From Aeriscardovia sp. (lineage in GTDB: Bacteria > Actinomycetota > Actinomycetes > Actinomycetales > Bifidobacteriaceae), in contig JAGBQM010000010.1 in NCBI GenBank assembly GCA_017632855.1, positions 1 through 54,314 on the forward strand: a stretch of DNA of 54,314 nt, read 5' to 3'. Below, one piece after another: positions 43,658 to 54,314 of this stretch. A program made the translations under genes and the position numbers. A model generated the notes under the pieces. The model made no database searches. It had not been told where the DNA came from and saw only the letters and a list, made by a program, of their open reading frames with translations. The first letter of the stretch is position 1, and every line of letters starts with the position of its first letter.

Positions 43658-44392
43658 ATGGCAAAAGAAGAAGCCAGAAAAAAGAAAAAAGGCGCCATAA
43701 AGCAGATTGTGCAAATTTATAAGCTCACTTATAAAACCAACAAGTCCCTTCCCTGGTGGATGCTTTTGGCTTTCCTCGTCCCCATTGGGGTAGCCTTGGC
43801 GATATGTTTTGGCGTGAGGTTCACCATTGCCTGGATTTGGATCCTCGTAATCCTGTGCGGGGTGATGGTGGGTTTTTCTGCAGCTTCAGCCACTCTGACG
43901 CAGATTTCGGACCGAGCCGGATATAAAAGGCTTGAAGGCCAGTTCGGGGCCTCTTCAGCAGTATTTTCCACTATTACCAGAGGGGATTTTTCGTTTCCCG
44001 AAGAGCCTGTGTGGATAAACCGAAAGACCAGAGACGCGCTCTGGAGGGGCACGGGCAGGGCCGGAATGTACTTGGTGGGAGAAGGGGACAAAGCCAGGCT
44101 CTCTATTGAAATGGATAAGCAGGAAGCGATACTGCGCAGGGTGGCCCCCGGAAGCAAAATCCCCGTCATAAGGATTTTTGTTGGAAACGGCAAGGGAAGA
44201 ACCCCCATAAGCAAGCTGCGCGGAACGATAATGAGAAAGAAAGCCGCCCTTACGAAAATGGAGCTAAACGAATTGAATGTGAGGCTCACCACCATGCAGG
44301 CAAAGCAGCAGGCCCTTCCCAGAAATGTGGACCCCAATAAGATCAAGGTCAGCAACAGGATGATGAGAAGGAGGAGCGGAGCCGACAGTTAA
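43658..44392 (+). CDS. DUF4191-family membrane protein
   Basis: Actinobacterial membrane protein of unknown role. The 244-residue product has a basic N-terminus (EEARKKKKGAIKQIVQIYKL) followed by TYKTNKSLPWWMLLAFLVPI, typical of the DUF4191 family. Two membrane helices (about 28-48 and 52-72) are followed by a cytoplasmic domain with VWINRKTRDALWRGTGRAGM. In other actinobacteria this gene often lies near glnA or lipoate genes; here it sits between two drug pumps. Its stop overlaps the stop of the converging pump gene. Confidence 0.85.
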   Translation: MAKEEARKKKKGAIKQIVQIYKLTYKTNKSLPWWMLLAFLVPIGVALAICFGVRFTIAWIWILVILCGVMVGFSAASATLTQISDRAGYKRLEGQFGASSAVFSTITRGDFSFPEEPVWINRKTRDALWRGTGRAGMYLVGEGDKARLSIEMDKQEAILRRVAPGSKIPVIRIFVGNGKGRTPISKLRGTIMRKKAALTKMELNELNVRLTTMQAKQQALPRNVDPNKIKVSNRMMRRRSGADS

Positions 44393-46086
44393 TCTAAGGC
44401 CTTTTCCCTTTCCGTCACGCCCTCTATTTCTTCCTCCCTGTCTTCTTCCAACGTTTTTTCCCTCTCTTTTGCAAGCTTCTTTTTTCCGGGGAACCATAAG
44501 CACATCACAAAGCTTGCGGCAATTACGGCAGCCGAAACCAAGGTGGTATCTGCAATTCCGTTTTCAAATCCGCGCTTTATATGGGAGTCTATCGAAGACT
44601 TGTCTGGATTGTGCTCCAAAGACTTTTCAATTTCGGGAATGGAAGTTCCCTGGGTAACTATCACCGAACTCGTCACAGCCTGCTTTTCCTGGCTGGAGAG
44701 ATTCGTGTTATTTACGGCGGAAGGAATTTCAGTCCAAAGGAAGGCCGTAAAAATTGAAGCTATTATGCCCACGCCCAGTGAAGACGCCAGCTGCACGGCC
44801 GTAGATTGGATGGAAGAAGCCTGGCCTCCCCACTTGTTCGGAACCCCGCTCATAAGGATTGCGGAAAGTTGGGCGGAAGTGAGTCCGAGGCCGAATCCGT
44901 AAGCTATCAGCCACCCCCTTATGGCCCATGAGCTCGGAGAGAAGCTGGTTTTAAACAGGAAGAAAATTCCCACCAAAGAAAGGGCCTGAATCGCCATACC
45001 CCAAACGATCACGGTTTTAGTGGAAGTAACTTTGACAAGCGGGGCGGCTAAAAGCCCGGAAACGAGGGAGGCGAAGCCCGTGCAGCACGTCACTTCTCCG
45101 GCCTGCAGGGCGCTCATCCCCAAGACGTTTTGCAGGAATTGCGGGAGGATGAAAAGGATTCCTATTAGGCCCGTCCTAAACACCACCTGCACGGCCACAG
45201 ACAGGGAGAAAGTGTGAATATGGAAGACGTTCAGGTCGATTATGTAGGATTTGCCCCTCTTTACCCTGTAGTTTTCCCAGAAGATGAACAAAACAAGGGC
45301 TATTGCGCCGATAAACAAAATCCAGGGAACAATGGAAAGGCCCAGCCATTTGGCGGATCCCTTTGAAGCGAACCACCATCCCATGGTTTTTCCCTCTATA
45401 AGGCCGTAGACCAAGCCTCCGAATCCTATGATGGAAAGGATTAGGCCCAAAACGTCTAGCCCCTTGAATTTTTCGCCGTAGGTGTCGGGAATCGTAAAAA
45501 GAACGAAAATGGCGCTAACGGCCGCGAGAGGAATTTCTATCCAAAATACCCACTGCCAGCTGGCGTAAGTTACCAGAAGGCCTCCAAGCCACGGCCCCAC
45601 TCCAAACATTGCGCTCATAAGGGAACCGAACAGGGCGAAGGCGAAGATGCGCATGCCTCCCGTGTAGATTGCGTTCATTGTCGAAAAAATAGTGGGAAGG
45701 ATCATGGCCCCGCCTATTCCTTGGACGACTCTGGCCGTCATCAGCATGGCGTAGCCGCCGAATTTGCCGGCCAGAGCCCCAAGCACGCTCCCCAGGGCGA
45801 ATACCACAAGGCCCCATACGAGCATCTTTTTTCTTCCCATCGCGTCGGCTATTCTGCCGGAAGTTACCAGCAGGGCGCAGAAGATGAGGGAATAAATGCT
45901 GACTATCCACTCTCCGTTGGAGGCGTTCAAGTTAAAGACCTGCATTATGGAGGGAAGGGCCACGTTCATTATGGTCCCGTCCATGATTACGGCCGAGATC
46001 GCTACTACCAGCCCTATCAGTGAAAGCCATTTGGATTTCAGCTTTGCCCCTGAGGGCTGTTCATTTTGCCCTGTTTTTTCAGCCAT
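44389..46086 (-). CDS. DHA2-family (14-TM) MFS efflux transporter, second copy
   Basis: A 565-residue drug/H+ antiporter paralogous to the pump at 41841: both share VAISAVIMDGTI-like starts, motif A (GRIADAMGRKKML), VGPWLGGLLVTY as motif C, and a long extracellular loop before the last helix. It ends in an acidic cytoplasmic tail (EREKTLEEDREEEIEG). It is transcribed away from a TetR gene (46220), with a strong inverted repeat in the shared promoter region, the standard layout for a ligand-induced pump. No terminator separates it from the converging DUF4191 gene. Confidence 0.9.
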   Translation of the reverse strand: MAEKTGQNEQPSGAKLKSKWLSLIGLVVAISAVIMDGTIMNVALPSIMQVFNLNASNGEWIVSIYSLIFCALLVTSGRIADAMGRKKMLVWGLVVFALGSVLGALAGKFGGYAMLMTARVVQGIGGAMILPTIFSTMNAIYTGGMRIFAFALFGSLMSAMFGVGPWLGGLLVTYASWQWVFWIEIPLAAVSAIFVLFTIPDTYGEKFKGLDVLGLILSIIGFGGLVYGLIEGKTMGWWFASKGSAKWLGLSIVPWILFIGAIALVLFIFWENYRVKRGKSYIIDLNVFHIHTFSLSVAVQVVFRTGLIGILFILPQFLQNVLGMSALQAGEVTCCTGFASLVSGLLAAPLVKVTSTKTVIVWGMAIQALSLVGIFFLFKTSFSPSSWAIRGWLIAYGFGLGLTSAQLSAILMSGVPNKWGGQASSIQSTAVQLASSLGVGIIASIFTAFLWTEIPSAVNNTNLSSQEKQAVTSSVIVTQGTSIPEIEKSLEHNPDKSSIDSHIKRGFENGIADTTLVSAAVIAASFVMCLWFPGKKKLAKEREKTLEEDREEEIEGVTEREKALD

Positions 46087-46161
46087 GAAGCTCCTAAAAG
46101 ACAGCGATTTAAAGAGAATATGAATTTAAATCAATTTCAAAACGATTAAGGTGTCGTAGAC

Positions 46162-46199
46162 TTAAACAGATTGTATCATAATTTAGACAATTTGTTTAA
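46162..46199. promoter_or_regulatory. TetR operator candidate in divergent promoter
   Basis: Arms TTAAACAGATTGT (46162-46174) and ACAATTTGTTTAA (46187-46199) are inverted repeats of 13 bases with one mismatch and a 12-base spacer. On the minus strand, TGATACAAT (46170-46178) is an extended -10 for the pump gene that overlaps the left arm, so a bound repressor would block it. The TetR start is 21 bases to the right, consistent with autoregulation. Confidence 0.75.
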
Positions 46200-46219
46200 A
46201 TATAGATAAGCTATATTTC

Positions 46220-46840
46220 GTGCCAAAAAGAATGTGGGAGGGATGCGTTCACAGGCTTTATGACGCTTTCTGGTCCCTTTTAGAAGAAAAGCCCTATGCC
46301 CAAATCTCAGTTTCAGAGCTCCTGGCCCGCGCCGGAGTGAGCCGGGGGGATTTTTATTACCACTACAAGAACCTGGTGGATCTGGCGAAATGCGCGGTGG
46401 AAGACGAGGCGAAAAACTGGGATGACTTGACTTCGCTCTTTTTAAATTTTGACGAGAGCAACATAGAAGTGGCAACCGACCAAATCTATTACTATCTTTC
46501 ATCCATCTGCAGGCAAAATTCCCTCAAAGCCAAAAGGCTTTCCATTCTTATTTCCCCCCATGGGAGCATGTACCTTGTAGAAGCCTTCAGGGAGGGGTTC
46601 AAAGATTACATAGTCAGATACAGGAATTTGGATCTCGAAAAATTCAACAATATGCAAAAAATTTTATTTGAAGGAGTAGTGGGCTTTTCCACAAGCCTCC
46701 TCGTTCATCTGGATCTATTGAAGAGCCTGGACAGGGAGGAATTAAACAGCCTTTCCGGTCATTTGGCCTCGATAATATATGCTTCCATAAAAAGTCACCA
46801 ACCGGGGGAGAAGGAAGTTTCGGGCAGTAAAAATATTTAA
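46220..46840 (+). CDS. TetR-family regulator, divergent from the pump
   Basis: The 206-residue product has an N-terminal helix-turn-helix (about 24-55, ISVSELLARAGVSRGDFYYH) and a C-terminal ligand domain with LSGHLASIIY at the end. Start GTG at 46220. It is divergently arranged with the second DHA2 pump and is its likely repressor through the inverted repeat at 46162-46199. Convergent with the DUF3043 gene, whose stop is five bases beyond. Confidence 0.9.
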   Translation: MPKRMWEGCVHRLYDAFWSLLEEKPYAQISVSELLARAGVSRGDFYYHYKNLVDLAKCAVEDEAKNWDDLTSLFLNFDESNIEVATDQIYYYLSSICRQNSLKAKRLSILISPHGSMYLVEAFREGFKDYIVRYRNLDLEKFNNMQKILFEGVVGFSTSLLVHLDLLKSLDREELNSLSGHLASIIYASIKSHQPGEKEVSGSKNI

Positions 46841-47532: not shown

Positions 47533-48909
47533 ATGAGTTCTGAAAACGGAAAAAACGAAGCACTTGATGAAATTTCCAAGAAAATAGAAGACAACTGGGA
47601 AAGCTTCGTTTGCGCTTTGGAAAAGAAAATCTCTCTCAAAGCGGTTTCCGCAGAAGGGATAAGTTCTCCTACCATGAAGGCCTCGGCAGAGTTTGTGGCT
47701 CAGTGCCTTAGGGAGGCCGGAATAGACAACGCCCGGGTGGAACAGGCCGTTCAAGGGGACGGGACTCCCGGGGCGTGGGAGGTAGTAGGCCAAAAAGACG
47801 TGGGGTCGGATAAGACCGTTTTTCTTTACGCCCACCACGACGTGCAGCCTGCAGGCGAAGAAAGCGCGTGGAAGACCCCTCCCTTTAAAGGCGTAGTAGA
47901 GGGCGGAAGGCTTTACGGCAGGGGCTCAAGCGACGACGGCGGGGGCATAATGACGCATATGGGGGCCCTCACGGCACTCAAGGGCAACCTCAAGTGCAAT
48001 GTCAAAGTCTTTATAGAAGGGGAAGAGGAGATGGGGTCTCCAAGCTTCCTACCCTTCTTAAACGCTCATCCGGATTACTTTGACGCGGATGTGATGTTTA
48101 TAACCGACTCCAGCAACTGGTCGGCCAAAATCCCCTCCCTCACTTCCTCCCTTCGCGGAAACGTCACCATGGACGTCACTGTAAGGTGCCTTGGGCACCC
48201 TGTGCACTCCGGAACTTTCGGAGGGCCTATCCTTGACGCCAACACCGTTTCGTGCATGCTGGTTTCCAGCTTCTATGACAAAGACGGAAACATCGCAGTT
48301 CCAGGACTCCTCCAGAGCGAACCCATAGGGGGGCTGAAGGAGGATCTGAGTGAAGAGGACTTCAGGAAGGATTCCTCCCTCCTTCCTTCCTGCAGGCTGG
48401 CCGGCAGCGGCTCTTTGGCCTCCCGACTTTGGACAAAGCCCGCCATAGCACTCACGGGAATGGATATAAGGCCGGTAAAGGAAGCCTTTAACCAGCTGGC
48501 AAGCGAGTGCACTTTCAGGCTTTCGGCGAGAATCAGCCCTTTGCAGAAGGCTGAGGACGCCGCACAGGCGTTAAAGGACTTCATTGTAAAGAAGGCCCCC
48601 TTTGGCTGCCAGGTAGAGGTGCGCGTCCTGGAAACCGGCACGGGCTGGGCCATGGATCCGCACAACCCCGTGGCCTTAAAGGCTGAAAAGTGCTTTCAGG
48701 AAGTATTCGGCTGCGCTCCGGAAAACAAGGGCGAAGGCGGATCCATTCCCATGATTCCGATCCTCCAGGCCAAATTCCCGAAGGCTGCCGTCCTTGTAGA
48801 CGGCCCCGAAGATCCTCTCACCAACGCCCACGCCCCCAATGAATCCCAGGATCTTTCCGAGCTTAGAGGAGATATGGAAGCTGAGGCCCTCATTCTTTCT
48901 TCCCTTTAA
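47533..48909 (+). CDS. M20-family dipeptidase
   Basis: Zinc-dependent cytoplasmic dipeptidase or related deacylase, 458 residues. Metal ligands and catalytic residues: AHHDVQP (His101, Asp103), SSDDGGG (bridging Asp134) and EGEEEMGS (Glu162-166, with base and metal ligand). The dimerization domain (about 205-370) is in the expected middle position, beginning near GNVTMDVTVRCLGHPVHSGTFGG. GHPVHSGTFGG fits the M20A/DapE-CNDP-like dipeptidases rather than DapE itself. Start ATG at 47533 with AAGCTGGTGAAG upstream. It is followed one base later by the TTG start of an ECF S component. Confidence 0.9.
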   Translation: MSSENGKNEALDEISKKIEDNWESFVCALEKKISLKAVSAEGISSPTMKASAEFVAQCLREAGIDNARVEQAVQGDGTPGAWEVVGQKDVGSDKTVFLYAHHDVQPAGEESAWKTPPFKGVVEGGRLYGRGSSDDGGGIMTHMGALTALKGNLKCNVKVFIEGEEEMGSPSFLPFLNAHPDYFDADVMFITDSSNWSAKIPSLTSSLRGNVTMDVTVRCLGHPVHSGTFGGPILDANTVSCMLVSSFYDKDGNIAVPGLLQSEPIGGLKEDLSEEDFRKDSSLLPSCRLAGSGSLASRLWTKPAIALTGMDIRPVKEAFNQLASECTFRLSARISPLQKAEDAAQALKDFIVKKAPFGCQVEVRVLETGTGWAMDPHNPVALKAEKCFQEVFGCAPENKGEGGSIPMIPILQAKFPKAAVLVDGPEDPLTNAHAPNESQDLSELRGDMEAEALILSSL

Positions 48910-48910
48910 T

Positions 48911-49507
48911 TTGAAATCGGGTTCGAAGGCGAAAGCCTGGAGGTGGAGGGTTGTAGACATTTCCACGGCCAGCTGCCTGGCCGTGGCCAGCGGCATAGTC
49001 TTTTGGGTCGCAGACTTCCTCCCCTTTTCAGCCCTTCAAACCCTTCTGCCCGGCTTTGGCGGAATCCTGAACGGCCTGTGGCTTTTTGCAGGGCCTCTGG
49101 CGGCGATAATTGTCAGAAAGCCCGGCGCCGCCCTTTATTGCGAGCTTTTGGCCTCCATCCTTGAAGCCCTCATGGGAAATATTTACGGCGGAGCCAGCGT
49201 GATTATCCCCGGCTTCTTTGAAGGCCTGGGCGCGGAAATCGTCTTCGCCCTCTTTTTTTACCGTGTATGGAACATAGCGACCGTGTGCTTATCGTCTATG
49301 CTTTCGGGCTTTTTCTGCTGGGCGGAAAGCTTTTTAACCGATCTTCAGGCCATAAGCTTTTCAGGCCCCTACGGATTGGCCTACCTCCTTTTCACCCTCT
49401 TAAGCTCCCTTTTGACGGGGATTGGCGCATGGTGCCTTTACAGGGCCATCGCCAGAACCGGAGCTCTGGATCGCTTCAGATCCGGCCGGGAAGGCAGAAG
49501 CATATGA
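48911..49507 (+). CDS. ECF transporter S component, YkoE-like (copy 1)
   Basis: Membrane substrate-binding subunit of an energy-coupling factor transporter. The 198-residue product has about six hydrophobic helices. VRKPGAALYCELLASILEAL, GNIYGG and FEGLGAEIVFAL match YkoE (thiamine/hydroxymethylpyrimidine-type S proteins), as does the end YRAIARTGALDRF. TTG at 48911, right after the dipeptidase stop, gives the same length as the second copy. An ATG at 48839 would add 24 residues inside the dipeptidase frame. No Shine-Dalgarno is seen, so translation is probably coupled. The substrate is inferred from family only. Confidence 0.85.
   Translation: MKSGSKAKAWRWRVVDISTASCLAVASGIVFWVADFLPFSALQTLLPGFGGILNGLWLFAGPLAAIIVRKPGAALYCELLASILEALMGNIYGGASVIIPGFFEGLGAEIVFALFFYRVWNIATVCLSSMLSGFFCWAESFLTDLQAISFSGPYGLAYLLFTLLSSLLTGIGAWCLYRAIARTGALDRFRSGREGRSI
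49071..49101 (+). repeat. Direct repeat shared by the two S-component genes (copy 1)
   Basis: The 31 bases here recur exactly at 49780-49810. They encode the same stretch NGLWLFAGPLA/DGLWLFAGPLA. A second exact match of 20 bases links 49454-49473 to 50166-50185. Recombination at either pair would delete about 710 bases and leave one hybrid gene. Confidence 0.9.
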
Positions 49508-49520
49508 AGTACATCCTTTA

Positions 49521-49555
49521 AAAGTGATACCCTTAAATAAAACACGAATCACTTT
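49521..49555 (+). promoter_or_regulatory. Inverted repeat between the two S-component genes
   Basis: AAAGTGAT (49521-49528) and ATCACTTT (49548-49555) are perfectly inverted with a 19-base AT-rich spacer. It lies in the only untranslated gap (121 bases) in this gene chain. A second small hairpin, AGGC-TTTGGGC-GCCT, lies at about 49587-49601. No thiamine riboswitch consensus (CTGAGA or ACCTGA cores) is visible. A protein-binding site for a substrate-dependent regulator is possible. Confidence 0.45.
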
Positions 49556-49628
49556 GCGCTCTCGTCGTTCTACGGGGAATTGGAGAGGCTTTGGGCGCCT
49601 TTGAGTATCGCCTTTAGGGGATGAAGGT

Positions 49629-50225
49629 TTGAGTTCCAGAACTAATTTCAAGTGGAGAGCCGTAGATATAGCCGTGTGCTCAGTTATAGGCGTGGCTTCT
49701 TCTTTCGTATTTTGGATGGCTGACTTTATACCTCATGACGGCTTGCAGGCGATATTTCCGGGTTTGGGAAGCCTTTTCGACGGCCTGTGGCTTTTTGCAG
49801 GGCCTCTGGCCGCAGTCATAATAAGAAAACCGGGCAGCTCCATTTACGCCCAACTTTTGGCTTCTTTGATAGAAGGAATGATGGGAAACGTCTACGGAGG
49901 GGCCCTGACGATATTGAGCGGATTTATACAGGGCCTGGGAGCGGAAGCCGTCTTTGCCGCCTTCGCCTACAGGCATTGGAATGTATGGATCACAATGCTT
50001 GCCGGAGGGTTTTCCGGGCTCCTTTACAGGGTGGTAAGCTTCCTTACCGATCTGCAGGCCTTCAGCTTCCTTGGGCTTTACGCCATTTCCTACACGGTGG
50101 CCACCGCAATATCCGGAACAGTAATTGCGGGACTGGGCTCGTGGTACCTTTACAGAGCTATCGCAAGAACCGGAGCTCTGGATCGATTTGCATCCGGGAG
50201 GGCCATACGCAAAAAGATCAAATGA
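49629..50225 (+). CDS. ECF transporter S component, YkoE-like (copy 2)
   Basis: The second 198-residue S component, co-linear with copy 1 throughout (W-R-x-VDI start, FPGLGSLFDGLWLFAGPLAA, IRKPGSSIYAQLLASLIEGM, YRAIARTGALDRFASGR). TTG at 49629 follows GGGGA by eight bases. The last helix and the ARTGALDRF end are nearly unchanged, while residues in the putative binding loops differ (for example ILSGFIQGLGAEAVFAA against IIPGFFEGLGAEIVFAL). The two may therefore bind different but related substrates. It overlaps the fused ATPase/EcfT gene by ATGA. Confidence 0.87.
   Translation: MSSRTNFKWRAVDIAVCSVIGVASSFVFWMADFIPHDGLQAIFPGLGSLFDGLWLFAGPLAAVIIRKPGSSIYAQLLASLIEGMMGNVYGGALTILSGFIQGLGAEAVFAAFAYRHWNVWITMLAGGFSGLLYRVVSFLTDLQAFSFLGLYAISYTVATAISGTVIAGLGSWYLYRAIARTGALDRFASGRAIRKKIK
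49780..49810 (+). repeat. Direct repeat shared by the two S-component genes (copy 2)
   Basis: Exact 31-base match to 49071-49101, 709 bases downstream; it marks the tandem duplication of the S-component gene. Confidence 0.9.
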
Positions 50226-52678
50226 ACAAGCAAAACGCAATCCTGTTTAAAGGCTGGGGATACAAAAGGCCCCTTAGGAAGGACTATGTAGTAAGGGGGC
50301 TGACTCTCGAAATAAAGAGAGGGGAAAGGGTCCTTCTCTTAGGATCTTCCGGTATAGGAAAAAGCACCCTCCTTTGCGCTATAGCGGGAGTTCTGGGAAA
50401 TAACGAGGCCTACCTTTCTTCCTCCTCGCAAAGAGAGGATGAAGACGGGGGGCTTACCGAAGGAGACCTGCTGGTTGAAGGCCTCCACCCCCAGCAGGCC
50501 AGGGGACGCTGCGCCCTTATGATGCAGGATCCCGAGGCTCAGATGGTCCTGCAGCGCGTAGGGGACAACGTCGCCTTCGGGCTTGAAAACCTCGGTATAG
50601 AAAGGGGAGAAATCTGGAGGAGGGTGAGGGAGTCGCTGAAGAGAGTGGGGCTTTCGGACATAGAGCTTTCCAGATCCACTTCGCACTTGTCGGGGGGGCA
50701 AAAGCAAAGGGTGGCCCTTGCAGGGGCTATAGCCATGAGGCCCTCCATACTTCTTTTGGACGAACCCACCGCCAACCTCGACCCTAAGGGCGCCAAAGAA
50801 GTCAGCAGGGCCTGCCACGAAGTGCTTAAAGAGGACCCGGCCACGGTAATTTTGGTGGAGCACAGGGCCGACAACTGGTTAGACATCCTCAACCGCGTAG
50901 TCATTTTGGGGAGAGACTCCGAAGGCATGGTAAAAGTCGCCGCCGACGGCACTCCGGACGAAATCTTTTCCGATCCCTCTATAGATTTCGACTCCCTGGG
51001 CATATGGATCCCTTCCAAATTCGCCCTGGCAAAGCTGCAAAGAAAAAGACTTGAAGATCAGATCAGGATCAAAGCCCAATCCGACTTCGATCCGAATTTT
51101 GAAGCCTTGAAAAACCGGGATCTTACCGATAGGGGATCCGGGAAAAACCTCATAACGCCCAGCATAAGGTTTGCAAGGAAAAGGGAGTTTGAAAGGGGGG
51201 AAGTAGTAGTCAGAGCGAAGGGCCTTTCCATCGGCTACAACGGCAAATCCATAGCCGACGACGTTTCTTTCGCCTTTGAAAGCGGGAAGATTACGATTTT
51301 GGCGGGAGAAAACGGGGCCGGAAAAAGCACTCTGGCCATGACGGTATCCGGACTCATGGCTCCGGTGGGGGGAGAGGTGGAGGTCTCCCCCTCTTTGGCC
51401 AGGGGCCTTAAGGGCTCTCCAATTTCTTGGACCAGCCGTCAGCTTTGCAGGAGGATAGCCTACGTATTTCAAAATCCGGAGCACCAGTTTGTGAGAAATA
51501 CCGTGCTTGAAGAGGTAATGGTGGGCTTTTTGGAGACCGGGAGCAAAAAGGAAGAGGCAAGAGGCCTCGCCCACTCCCTGCTTAAAAGGTTCGATTTGGA
51601 TCGCTACTCCGGAGCCAACCCCTATACCCTTTCAGGAGGGGAGAAGCGCAGGCTCACCGTGGCTTCCTCCCTTGCCTCTTCGCCGGAAGTTTTGATCTTG
51701 GACGAACCCACCTTTGGGCAAGACAGGTCAACCTGGCTAGAAATCGTAATGCTGATGCGATCGGTTGCAGACAGCGGAGTGGCCGTAGTGGCCGTCACTC
51801 ACGACAAGGAGCTTATAGAGTTTCTTTCAGACAAAGTCTTGACCATAGGAGACAAAGAAGGGTGCGATATAAGGGTGAAAGGCGCAAACGAGAGGAAGGA
51901 AAAAGAAAGGCCGGCTTCCCTTTCCCCTTTGCTTTCCCGCCTGAACCCGGCCATACGGTTTTTGTGCGCCTTCCTGCTTTCCATTCCCTTGTTTTTGAGC
52001 CTGGACCCCCTCTCGGCGGGATTGGCGCTGGCGCTCGAATTTTTGTTTATGGAAGGGTGCGGCATCTCTTTAAAGCAGGCTTTAAAGCACGTGTGGCCGA
52101 TTTTCGCCATGGCACCGTGGACTTTCCTTGCGGTAGTCATATACGGGAAAAAGGGATCCGTCACATACTTTGAGTGGGGAATGATACATGTGACGAATAA
52201 GTCAGTCTACCTGGCTTTCGCCACCTTCCTCAGGGTTTTGGCCATCGCGGTTCCTGCCGTCCTTTTGGTCTTGGGCATAGATTCTACGGATTTGGCGGAC
52301 GCCGCCAGCCAGATCCTCCGCCTTCCGGAAAGGTTCGTGTACGGAGGCCTGGCCGGCATAAGGCTTTTTACCGTCCTTTCAGACGACTGGCTCCAAATCG
52401 GACAAGCCAGAAGGAGCAGGGGCCTGGGGGACAGAAAGAAGGCGGTCCGCTTCTTTACCCAGTCTTTCTCCCTCCTCATCCTTTCCATCCGCCGTTCGAC
52501 CTCCCTTTCTACGGCCATGGAGGCCAGAGGTTTCGGCGGGGAAGGGAAAAGGAGCTGGGCCAGACTCAGCCGCACTTCCTACAGGGATTGGGTGGCCCTT
52601 TCCGTTTGCGCCCTCATCCCCGCCTCCGCCCTGCTTTTGGCCTATTACTGCGGCACCTTCGCTTTGGGAGGCAAATGA
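50222..52678 (+). CDS. Fused ECF energizing module: two ATPases plus EcfT in one chain
   Basis: An 818-residue protein. ATPase 1: Walker A GSSGIGKS (41-48, Lys47), signature LSGGQKQR from 156, Walker B Asp180-Glu181. ATPase 2: GENGAGKS (Lys368), LSGGEKRR from 470, and LDEPTFGQD. From about residue 575 an EcfT-type membrane domain follows, with several helices and both coupling motifs (ARRSRG at 729-734, AMEARG at 765-770). B. subtilis has YkoD (two ATPases) and YkoC (EcfT) as separate proteins; here one frame covers all. The ATG at 50222 (ATGA overlap with copy 2) is chosen over longer open frame upstream. It energizes uptake through the YkoE-like S components. Confidence 0.9.
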   Translation: MNKQNAILFKGWGYKRPLRKDYVVRGLTLEIKRGERVLLLGSSGIGKSTLLCAIAGVLGNNEAYLSSSSQREDEDGGLTEGDLLVEGLHPQQARGRCALMMQDPEAQMVLQRVGDNVAFGLENLGIERGEIWRRVRESLKRVGLSDIELSRSTSHLSGGQKQRVALAGAIAMRPSILLLDEPTANLDPKGAKEVSRACHEVLKEDPATVILVEHRADNWLDILNRVVILGRDSEGMVKVAADGTPDEIFSDPSIDFDSLGIWIPSKFALAKLQRKRLEDQIRIKAQSDFDPNFEALKNRDLTDRGSGKNLITPSIRFARKREFERGEVVVRAKGLSIGYNGKSIADDVSFAFESGKITILAGENGAGKSTLAMTVSGLMAPVGGEVEVSPSLARGLKGSPISWTSRQLCRRIAYVFQNPEHQFVRNTVLEEVMVGFLETGSKKEEARGLAHSLLKRFDLDRYSGANPYTLSGGEKRRLTVASSLASSPEVLILDEPTFGQDRSTWLEIVMLMRSVADSGVAVVAVTHDKELIEFLSDKVLTIGDKEGCDIRVKGANERKEKERPASLSPLLSRLNPAIRFLCAFLLSIPLFLSLDPLSAGLALALEFLFMEGCGISLKQALKHVWPIFAMAPWTFLAVVIYGKKGSVTYFEWGMIHVTNKSVYLAFATFLRVLAIAVPAVLLVLGIDSTDLADAASQILRLPERFVYGGLAGIRLFTVLSDDWLQIGQARRSRGLGDRKKAVRFFTQSFSLLILSIRRSTSLSTAMEARGFGGEGKRSWARLSRTSYRDWVALSVCALIPASALLLAYYCGTFALGGK

Positions 52679-53484
52679 TGAGGGGAGAAAGGCTCGAAGA
52701 GGGGTCGGCCAGGGTTTCCAAGATCGCTTTTTACGCTTCAAAGGCCGGGTGGAAAAAGAGCGGGAAATTTTTGGCGGAAGGCCCCCAGGCCGTGAGGGAA
52801 GCCATAAAAAGCGGCCTGGCGAAAGACGTTTACTTCGACGAATCCTTAGACCTGCCTGAAGAATTTCTAAAGGGAGAGGGCTCATGGTTCCACCCCGCTT
52901 CCCACAGGGCGATGGAAAAAATCTCCAAGGACTGCCAGGGCGTTTTGGCGGTTGCCTCCTTAAAGGATCTGGAAAGGGATTTTTCCTCTCTCGATCTTTC
53001 AGGCCTCTTTGTAATCTGCGCCCTTTGGCAGGTGAGGGATCCTGGAAACGAGGGGACGATAATCAGAAGCTGCGACGCCGCCGGGTGCAGGGCCGTGCTT
53101 TTGGTAGACGAATGCGCTTCCCCCTTCAACCCCAAGGTGGTCAGAGCCAGCGCCGGATCCATTTTCCACATCCCCTTCTTCAGGTGCTCTGAAGAAGAAT
53201 TGCTGAATTTGAGGGACAGGGCCTCTTTGATCTCTACAAGCGGCAGGGATTTTGATAAAAAGGTGTTGATAGATTCTTCCCCCTCCGCCTTGGAGGGCCT
53301 GGGCTCTATGGTGCTGCTTTTTGGAAACGAAGCCCGAGGGCTTCCGGATAGGCTTATAAAAGAAAGCCGGGCCGTGGCCAAGATACCCATCTACGGCCTG
53401 GCGGAATCCTTAAACCTCTCCTCGGCAGCCAGCATTTTGGTCTACGACGCAGTCAGGAGCCAAAGAATGAAAGGTGAATTATGA
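52678..53484 (+). CDS. SpoU/TrmH-family RNA 2'-O-methyltransferase
   Basis: Methylates ribose 2'-OH groups in rRNA or tRNA with S-adenosylmethionine. The 268-residue product has an N-terminal substrate-binding domain (KFLAEGPQAVREAI) and a trefoil-knot SPOUT domain. Its motifs are motif 1 (VRDPGNEGTIIRSCDAAGCR), motif 2 (LFGNEARGLP) and motif 3 (IPIYGLAESLNLSSAASILV). The TsnR/RlmB-like group is likely, but the target nucleotide is not known. Two ATG codons (52675, 52678) are adjacent; the second is better spaced from GGGAGG. Overlap with pheS (ATGA) follows the bifidobacterial pattern of methyltransferase directly before pheST. Confidence 0.9.
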   Translation: MRGERLEEGSARVSKIAFYASKAGWKKSGKFLAEGPQAVREAIKSGLAKDVYFDESLDLPEEFLKGEGSWFHPASHRAMEKISKDCQGVLAVASLKDLERDFSSLDLSGLFVICALWQVRDPGNEGTIIRSCDAAGCRAVLLVDECASPFNPKVVRASAGSIFHIPFFRCSEEELLNLRDRASLISTSGRDFDKKVLIDSSPSALEGLGSMVLLFGNEARGLPDRLIKESRAVAKIPIYGLAESLNLSSAASILVYDAVRSQRMKGEL

Positions 53485-54314
53485 ATGCGGTTTTCGATTC
53501 TTCCGCCCTCTCTTTTTCCCTGAAGGAGGGGCTGGAGCAAATAGAAGAGGCGCAAAGCTCCCAAGATCTTGAAGCCGTACGTTCCAAGTACTTTGGTTCG
53601 CAGGGCCTTTTTTCCATGGCTTCCAAGTCCATAGGCTCTCTGGAGAAGGAAGAAAGGAAAGAGGCCGGGGAATTTTTCGGCAGGTGCAAAAAGGAATTCG
53701 ATTCCGCCTTCCTTAAGAAGAAAGAAATGGTGGAGGCGAAAGAAGAGGAAGAGAAGCTGGAAAAAGAAAGGGTGGACATGACCCTTCCTTTCACCCGCTT
53801 CCCCTTAGGATCCCTTCACCCCATCACGTTGGTGTCAAGAGAGATTGAGGCCTTCTTCACTTCCCTGGGCTGGTCATTGGGTGAAGGGCCGGAAATAGAG
53901 CACGCCTGGTACAACTTCGACGCCTTGAACTTTCCTTCCGACCATCCCGCCCGCCAGATGCAAGACACTTTTTACATGTCTCCGAAAGAAAGCCGCCTCG
54001 TGCTTAGGACCCAGACCAGCTCCACCCAGGTGAGGGAGATGATTTCAGGATCCCTCCCACTCTACACCGCCTCCATAGGCCGCGTATTCAGGTCAGACCC
54101 TTTGGACGCCTTCCAGTCCCCCGTCTTCCACCAATGCGAGGGGCTTGCGGTAGACGAGGGCCTTTCGGTTTCAGATCTTATGGGCGTCTTGCGCGCCCTC
54201 TCTTCCCGCCTTTTCGGGAAAGCTGAAATCAGGCTGCGCCCCTCCTACTTCCCCATTACCGAGCCCAGTTTTGAGATGGACATGCTCCTTGAAGGGGAGG
54301 AAAAGTGGGTGGAA
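53481..54314 (+). CDS. pheS: Phenylalanine-tRNA ligase alpha subunit (5' part)
   Basis: Charges tRNA-Phe with phenylalanine as part of an alpha2-beta2 enzyme. The first 278 codons are in the window and the gene runs off the right edge. Seen: an N-terminal coiled-coil (about 50-100, KEFDSAFLKKKEMVEAKEEE), then the catalytic core with GWSLGEGPEIEHAWYNFDAL, DHPARQMQDTFY, RTQTSSTQVR and FHQCEGL, and RLRPSYFPITEPSFEMD near the edge. All are class II PheS signatures. Start ATG 53481 overlaps the methyltransferase stop. pheT is expected next, outside the window. Confidence 0.97.
   Translation, partial: MNAVFDSSALSFSLKEGLEQIEEAQSSQDLEAVRSKYFGSQGLFSMASKSIGSLEKEERKEAGEFFGRCKKEFDSAFLKKKEMVEAKEEEEKLEKERVDMTLPFTRFPLGSLHPITLVSREIEAFFTSLGWSLGEGPEIEHAWYNFDALNFPSDHPARQMQDTFYMSPKESRLVLRTQTSSTQVREMISGSLPLYTASIGRVFRSDPLDAFQSPVFHQCEGLAVDEGLSVSDLMGVLRALSSRLFGKAEIRLRPSYFPITEPSFEMDMLLEGEEKWVE

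Follow-up and report, generated by a model that had tools for sequence, protein, structure and literature searches.

Can a single polypeptide hold the entire energizing module of an energy-coupling factor (ECF) transporter, and which compound would such a module help to import? Both questions are raised by an 818-residue frame on contig JAGBQM010000010.1 of Aeriscardovia sp. (assembly GCA_017632855.1), the 54,314 nucleotides of which form the window analysed here. The frame opens with an ATG and has no internal stop. Pfam matched ABC_tran (PF00005) in two stretches of the chain (182 bits together) and CbiQ/EcfT (PF02361) at residues 571-776, with 55.5 bits compared to a cut-off of 25; a profile comparison paired this last domain (T) with the EcfT chain 4HZU_T at an E-value of 7.8e-25. 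Among 34 aligned fused homologues, the Walker A, Q-loop, LSGGQ, Walker B Asp-Glu and H-loop of both ATP-binding cassette (ABC) ATPases (A and A′) are invariant or nearly so, as are the two arginine motifs of the T domain, ARRSRG (residues ~729-734) and MEARGFGG (~766-773). The chain thus has the content of an ECF energizing module, namely two ABC ATPases with full motifs and an EcfT/CbiQ domain with two arginine coupling motifs, and these results, together with the fold described below, confirm the preliminary description of this DNA as encoding A-A′-T in one frame (Table 1). A search of a plasmid collection returned no match spanning 80% of the fused chain.

Table 1. Features of the fused ECF module, its substrate-binding (S) components and the other ECF set of the genome. 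pLDDT, predicted local distance difference test; pN/pS, ratio of nonsynonymous to synonymous differences per site
Feature	Position	Strand	Basis and remarks
A-A′-T fused ECF energizing chain (YkoD+YkoC fusion), 818 aa	50222..52678	+	Frame without stop, domains, tree, model
ABC ATPase 1 (N-terminal YkoD half), residues 1-285	50222..51076	+	Walker A GSSGIGKST, LSGGQ, DEP, H-loop H214
Inter-ATPase linker, residues 286-325	51077..51196	+	Variable; pN/pS 0.31; pLDDT 42-51 over residues ~291-320
ABC ATPase 2 (C-terminal YkoD half), residues 326-540	51197..51841	+	Pfam, alignment motifs
Fusion junction, residues 541-570	51842..51931	+	Counterpart of the unfused T protein's N-terminal tail at residues ~549-570; pLDDT 72-76
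EcfT/YkoC domain, residues 571-818	51932..52675	+	Five membrane helices predicted; coupling helices ~688-768 carry ARRSRG and MEARGFGG
S component 2 (S2), YkoE family (PF09819)	49629..50225	+	TTG start, GAAGG upstream; equivalents of W49, E77, Q95, D131
S component 1 (S1), YkoE family paralogue	48911..49507	+	TTG 48911 start inferred; Q95 replaced by Glu
Second, unfused ECF set, group II-like	G000:C4:2993-6037 (L071)		PF12822 S, CbiQ-type T, two separate ATPases; same 0.77-Mb genome

The gene context points to a known transporter. YkoEDC has been described as a group I ECF transporter for thiamine or hydroxymethylpyrimidine (HMP), in which YkoD consists of two fused ATPases, YkoC is a separate protein, and the YkoE-type S components are dedicated rather than freely exchanged (PMC5037267); in agreement with that work, the preliminary description had EcfT as separate even where the ATPases are fused. 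In a survey of gut genomes, transport of HMP is assigned to YkoEDC and that of B1 to YkoEDC2 (PMC6593275); A-A′ fusions have been described as well (PMC6828968). Because two tandem YkoE genes lie directly upstream and the order S - A-A′ - T is common to unfused outgroup operons, the module is, by gene content and order, a ykoEDC operon of group I with D and C joined head to tail. It shares with that group an S component of the YkoE type encoded in the same operon and two ATPases in one chain (YkoD), while a separate T protein (YkoC) and a thiamine pyrophosphate (TPP) riboswitch on the operon are absent. Its nesting among YkoDC homologues in the tree described below makes the fused chain, on phylogenetic grounds, a variant and not another family. 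The chain is likely, in our view, to make up the whole ATP-driven motor of a YkoEDC-type group I ECF importer, ykoD and ykoC having become one frame. We found no description of an A-A′-T fusion in the literature searched; the primary ECF surveys of 2009 and 2011, outside that literature, might mention one.

The A-A′-T fusion is the prevailing form in the Bifidobacteriaceae. The T domain is present in 167 of the 189 species of the family that were searched; among the matches listed, 120 species have a frame of at least 700 aa, which we used as a proxy for fusion, 26 have shorter frames only (including one truncated at the end of its contig), and four have both. Within the family, the long-frame loci that were checked for domains are all true A-A′-T chains, and the architecture, the frequency of which the preliminary description had proposed to settle by just such a domain search, is common. 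Frame length alone was rejected as a count of fusions outside the family, where long T frames of high-G+C genomes (757 aa in G411, 706 aa in G549) lack an ATPase domain, and the tree was built from domain-checked loci only. Named relatives are Aeriscardovia metagenome-assembled genomes from the ruminant abomasum, then Bifidobacterium, Gardnerella and Bombiscardovia, which fits the placement in the Bifidobacteriaceae that the preliminary description had assumed.

In the tree, one clade is fused in all of its 42 rows (support 100), its sister clade in the Bifidobacteriaceae contains 15 split rows and one fused (Bifidobacterium simiiventris), and the nearer outgroups have the split form. T is likewise a gene of its own in Microbacteriaceae and Corynebacterium. 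A single fusion event at the base of the 42-row clade is the simplest reading of this topology. In the split Bifidobacterium clade, a tail such as SIAVTPPEERHEQAKPASQSWFIAKLNP opens the T protein; its pattern is retained in the linker of the fused chain (CDIRVKGANERKEKERPASLSPLLSRLNP), so that two whole genes were joined, with no recombination inside a domain. The fusion in B. simiiventris is probably a separate event, because its junction (L097, 4710-4809) carries a 30-bp tandem repeat that is read as protein, and its linker differs. The fusion also arose, apparently by convergence, in at least two other actinobacterial families of the same order, with domain-checked cases in one (G052:C1, L070; G346:C3, L157) and in another (G522:C5, L158). 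Fused and unfused YkoD/YkoC copies occur together in Bifidobacterium erythrocebi (L113/L115), where they are ~16 kb apart on one contig, and in G068, G092, G107 and G121.

The AlphaFold2 model of the full chain has a mean pLDDT of 84.6 and a predicted template modelling score of 0.82, with moderate confidence at the A′-T junction and low confidence in the inter-ATPase linker. The modelled ATPase pair superposes on the single-chain pair of ATP-bound DppABCD (8wdb_D) over 458 residues at 2.8 Å. Because the ATPases dominate a whole-chain structure search, the T part was folded and searched separately; it matched 8bms_C with a Z-score of 15.0 (root-mean-square deviation 5.2 over 240 residues), compared to 5.9 for the best unrelated chain. 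Predicted helices of the T part span residues 576-591, 596-612, 625-641, 659-683, 688-768 (coupling) and 787-809, and the coupling helices thus fall between membrane helices four and five of the model. Coupling helices have to lie in the cytosol; on that premise, T would begin its first membrane helix on the cytosolic side, where ATPase 2 ends, so that the chain could fold as an ordinary ECF motor.

In the mechanism that we propose, the two ATPase halves would pair as a nucleotide-binding dimer, on which the arginine motifs of the EcfT coupling helices would dock. The linker would leave ATPase 2 in the cytosol and enter the first membrane helix from the inside, so that joining the two proteins would cost no topological change. 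YkoE S components would bind the vitamin outside and then dock on the EcfT domain, where they would topple, release the vitamin inside and be reset by ATP hydrolysis. With T covalently held, only the YkoE proteins would still come and go, and the two paralogues presumably compete for one motor. As the fusion recurs in several lineages, release of T from the ATPases seems not to be needed during the cycle. The preliminary description had further supposed that a covalent chain fixes the stoichiometry at 1:1:1; the one-chain order A-A′-T stands, but the ratio would not be a functional novelty, as solved ECF modules built from separate chains already have A:A′:T at 1:1:1.

The S components are tandem paralogues that are 55% identical to each other. 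Each scores ~117 bits against the YkoE family, and the sole PDB match is 5EDL, the YkoE of Bacillus subtilis. For S1, the listed ATG at 48839 overlaps the peptidase gene, and the TTG given in Table 1 was taken as the start instead. The S2 stop and the ATG of the fused gene overlap by 4 nt (ATGA); a second ATGA overlap links the end of the fused gene to the probable ATG start of the gene that follows. Both paralogues are retained in all five congeners in which the locus was examined, and the duplication is also found in the sister genus g11. The thiamine contacts of B. subtilis YkoE are Y46, W49, E77, Q95 and D131, in a pocket solved with thiamine (PMC5037267); at the corresponding positions S2 has D, W, E, Q and D, against N, W, E, E and D in S1. 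The exchange at Gln95, the pyrimidine contact, is fixed in S1 (Glu in six of six Aeriscardovia sequences), and this difference between the pockets suggests that S1 and S2 may favour different thiamine compounds. A TPP riboswitch lies upstream of YkoE in both fused (L045, L057) and unfused (L060, L061, L065) relatives. The substrate would most likely be thiamine or a thiamine-related compound.

Several points weigh against the chain being the motor of a thiamine importer. Tyr46, the thiazole contact, is replaced by Asp in S2 and by Asn in S1, and the Glu of S1 at the Gln95 position removes a further residue of the characterized pocket. No TPP riboswitch was found in the window, even with permissive filters, or above threshold in the genus, and thiamine regulation is therefore unsupported in the organism of the window itself. 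Use of imported thiamine would call for a ThiL or a thiamine pyrophosphokinase, and neither is recognised in the genus. Lastly, that the chain persists as one stable, expressed protein is deduced from its sequence.

Two proteins might be made after all, through an internal start, a programmed frameshift, proteolysis or an assembly error that hides a stop; A-A′ and T are overlapping or adjacent genes in the unfused homologues, so that a stop could in principle have been missed once. We regard this as very improbable, given that the same single frame is present throughout the 42-row fused clade, which includes the window and five congeners. The frame is complete in six of the seven genomes of the genus, including that of the window, to which the other copies are 85-93% identical; in the seventh, the contig starts inside the fused gene. 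Across the window and its five congeners, junction codons 541-570 are gap-free, with pS 0.61, pN 0.21 and pN/pS 0.34, so that the frame has been kept although synonymous sites are near saturation. For the T domain pN/pS is 0.09, and these ratios indicate that junction and T domain are both under purifying selection. A frameshift or missed stop between residues 540 and 580, which the preliminary description had named as fatal to its claim of a single uninterrupted frame, was looked for and is excluded at the sequence level by the six species, whose frames run gap-free through the junction. An internal translation start was also rejected: the only candidates near the junction are TTG or GTG codons at residues 540, 552, 570, 581, 590 and 592, none of which has, by eye, a convincing Shine-Dalgarno sequence at normal spacing. 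We also regard it as unlikely, though less so, that the fused chain is a shared, group II-like motor for any S component in the cell. Two S genes adjoin one motor, which implies at least two S proteins per motor, and a further S-family (PF12822) gene lies at G000:C38:1401-1844, remote from both ECF motors. However, the genome has a separate S-T-A-A′ set, only YkoE genes adjoin the fused motor, and in the relatives examined the neighbouring S gene belongs to the YkoE type. The earlier expectation that S components alone are exchangeable is not supported: the local S genes are limited to the two YkoE paralogues, and the separate ECF set brings an S gene of its own.

Which thiamine compound the likely YkoEDC-type motor serves is a question to which the metabolism of the genus speaks. 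ThiE, ThiL and TPK_catalytic gave no match in any of the seven genomes of the genus (G000-G006), some of them rated 99-100% complete, and no ThiD exceeded the cut-off in the window's own genome; control genomes did match the ThiE, ThiL and TPK families, so the searches for these work. A TPP-dependent phosphoketolase is present in all seven. Because families for activation and synthesis are missing while this enzyme is kept, the genus must, judging by gene content, depend on uptake of a thiamine compound, and the known enzymes would allow use of TPP only. Either an unrecognised kinase exists, or TPP is carried by the fused-motor transporter or by another one. It is conceivable, if rather doubtful, that the same fused module imports TPP (or the monophosphate) and not thiamine, with the two YkoE paralogues dividing thiamine-type substrates. 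Beyond the missing families and the retained phosphoketolase, the conservation of both paralogues among congeners and the fixed Q95E exchange in S1 would fit this proposal; yet the argument from absence rests on known families, such that an unrecognised kinase would remove it, and in the B. subtilis structure the pocket holds thiamine (PMC5037267). Should the fused motor and its two diverged YkoE proteins import TPP itself, in a genome-reduced genus without recognised steps from thiamine to the cofactor, the substrates of YkoE-type ECF transporters would gain a new member; we hold this outcome to be possible but not probable. We know of no YkoE that has been shown to carry TPP.

Because thiamine activation has been lost genus-wide, the transporter is probably essential in the genus, and we find this loss more interesting than the fusion itself. 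The architecture is widespread in public genomes, and as such is a modest variation on a known transporter and a small surprise. It has practical uses nonetheless: a one-chain A-A′-T cannot lose its T subunit, a loss that confounds studies of S-component exchange with multi-chain modules, and it may therefore serve structural and single-molecule work on that exchange. For annotation, such bifidobacterial frames should be named as complete ECF motors, not as plain ATPases.

Genes at 47533-54314 on the forward strand are co-directional and comprise an M20 peptidase, the two YkoE genes, the fused motor, a SpoU methylase and pheS. Farther upstream, 44389-46840 holds, on the reverse strand, a gene for a large membrane protein of 565 aa resembling efflux pumps of the major facilitator superfamily, and a TetR-like regulator (46220-46840, forward strand) is divergent from it; these two were judged from their sequences only.

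Compared to B. subtilis YkoEDC, the system described here has the same YkoE S component, tandem fused ATPases, YkoC-type T and S - A-A′ - T order, and several relatives of the window's organism share the TPP riboswitch; it differs in having A-A′ and T in one chain and two YkoE paralogues, in a genus without the riboswitch. Unfused YkoE-YkoD-YkoC operons (Microbacteriaceae, Corynebacterium and the Bifidobacterium sister clade) agree in operon and domain order, and each of their domains is clearly homologous at ~35-50% identity, whereas their T is a gene of its own that overlaps or adjoins the ATPase gene. The group II EcfA-EcfA′-EcfT modules (8bms, 7nnu, 4hzu) are alike in EcfT fold, coupling motifs and paired ATPases, but consist of three individual chains that serve many S components, and YkoE is not an S component of the group II type. 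The single-chain ATPase pairs DppD and OppD of Mycobacterium tuberculosis (8wdb_D, 8j5r_D) likewise carry two ATPase domains per chain in the same arrangement; in these peptide importers, unlike in the fused chain, the membrane subunits are proteins of their own and belong to another type.
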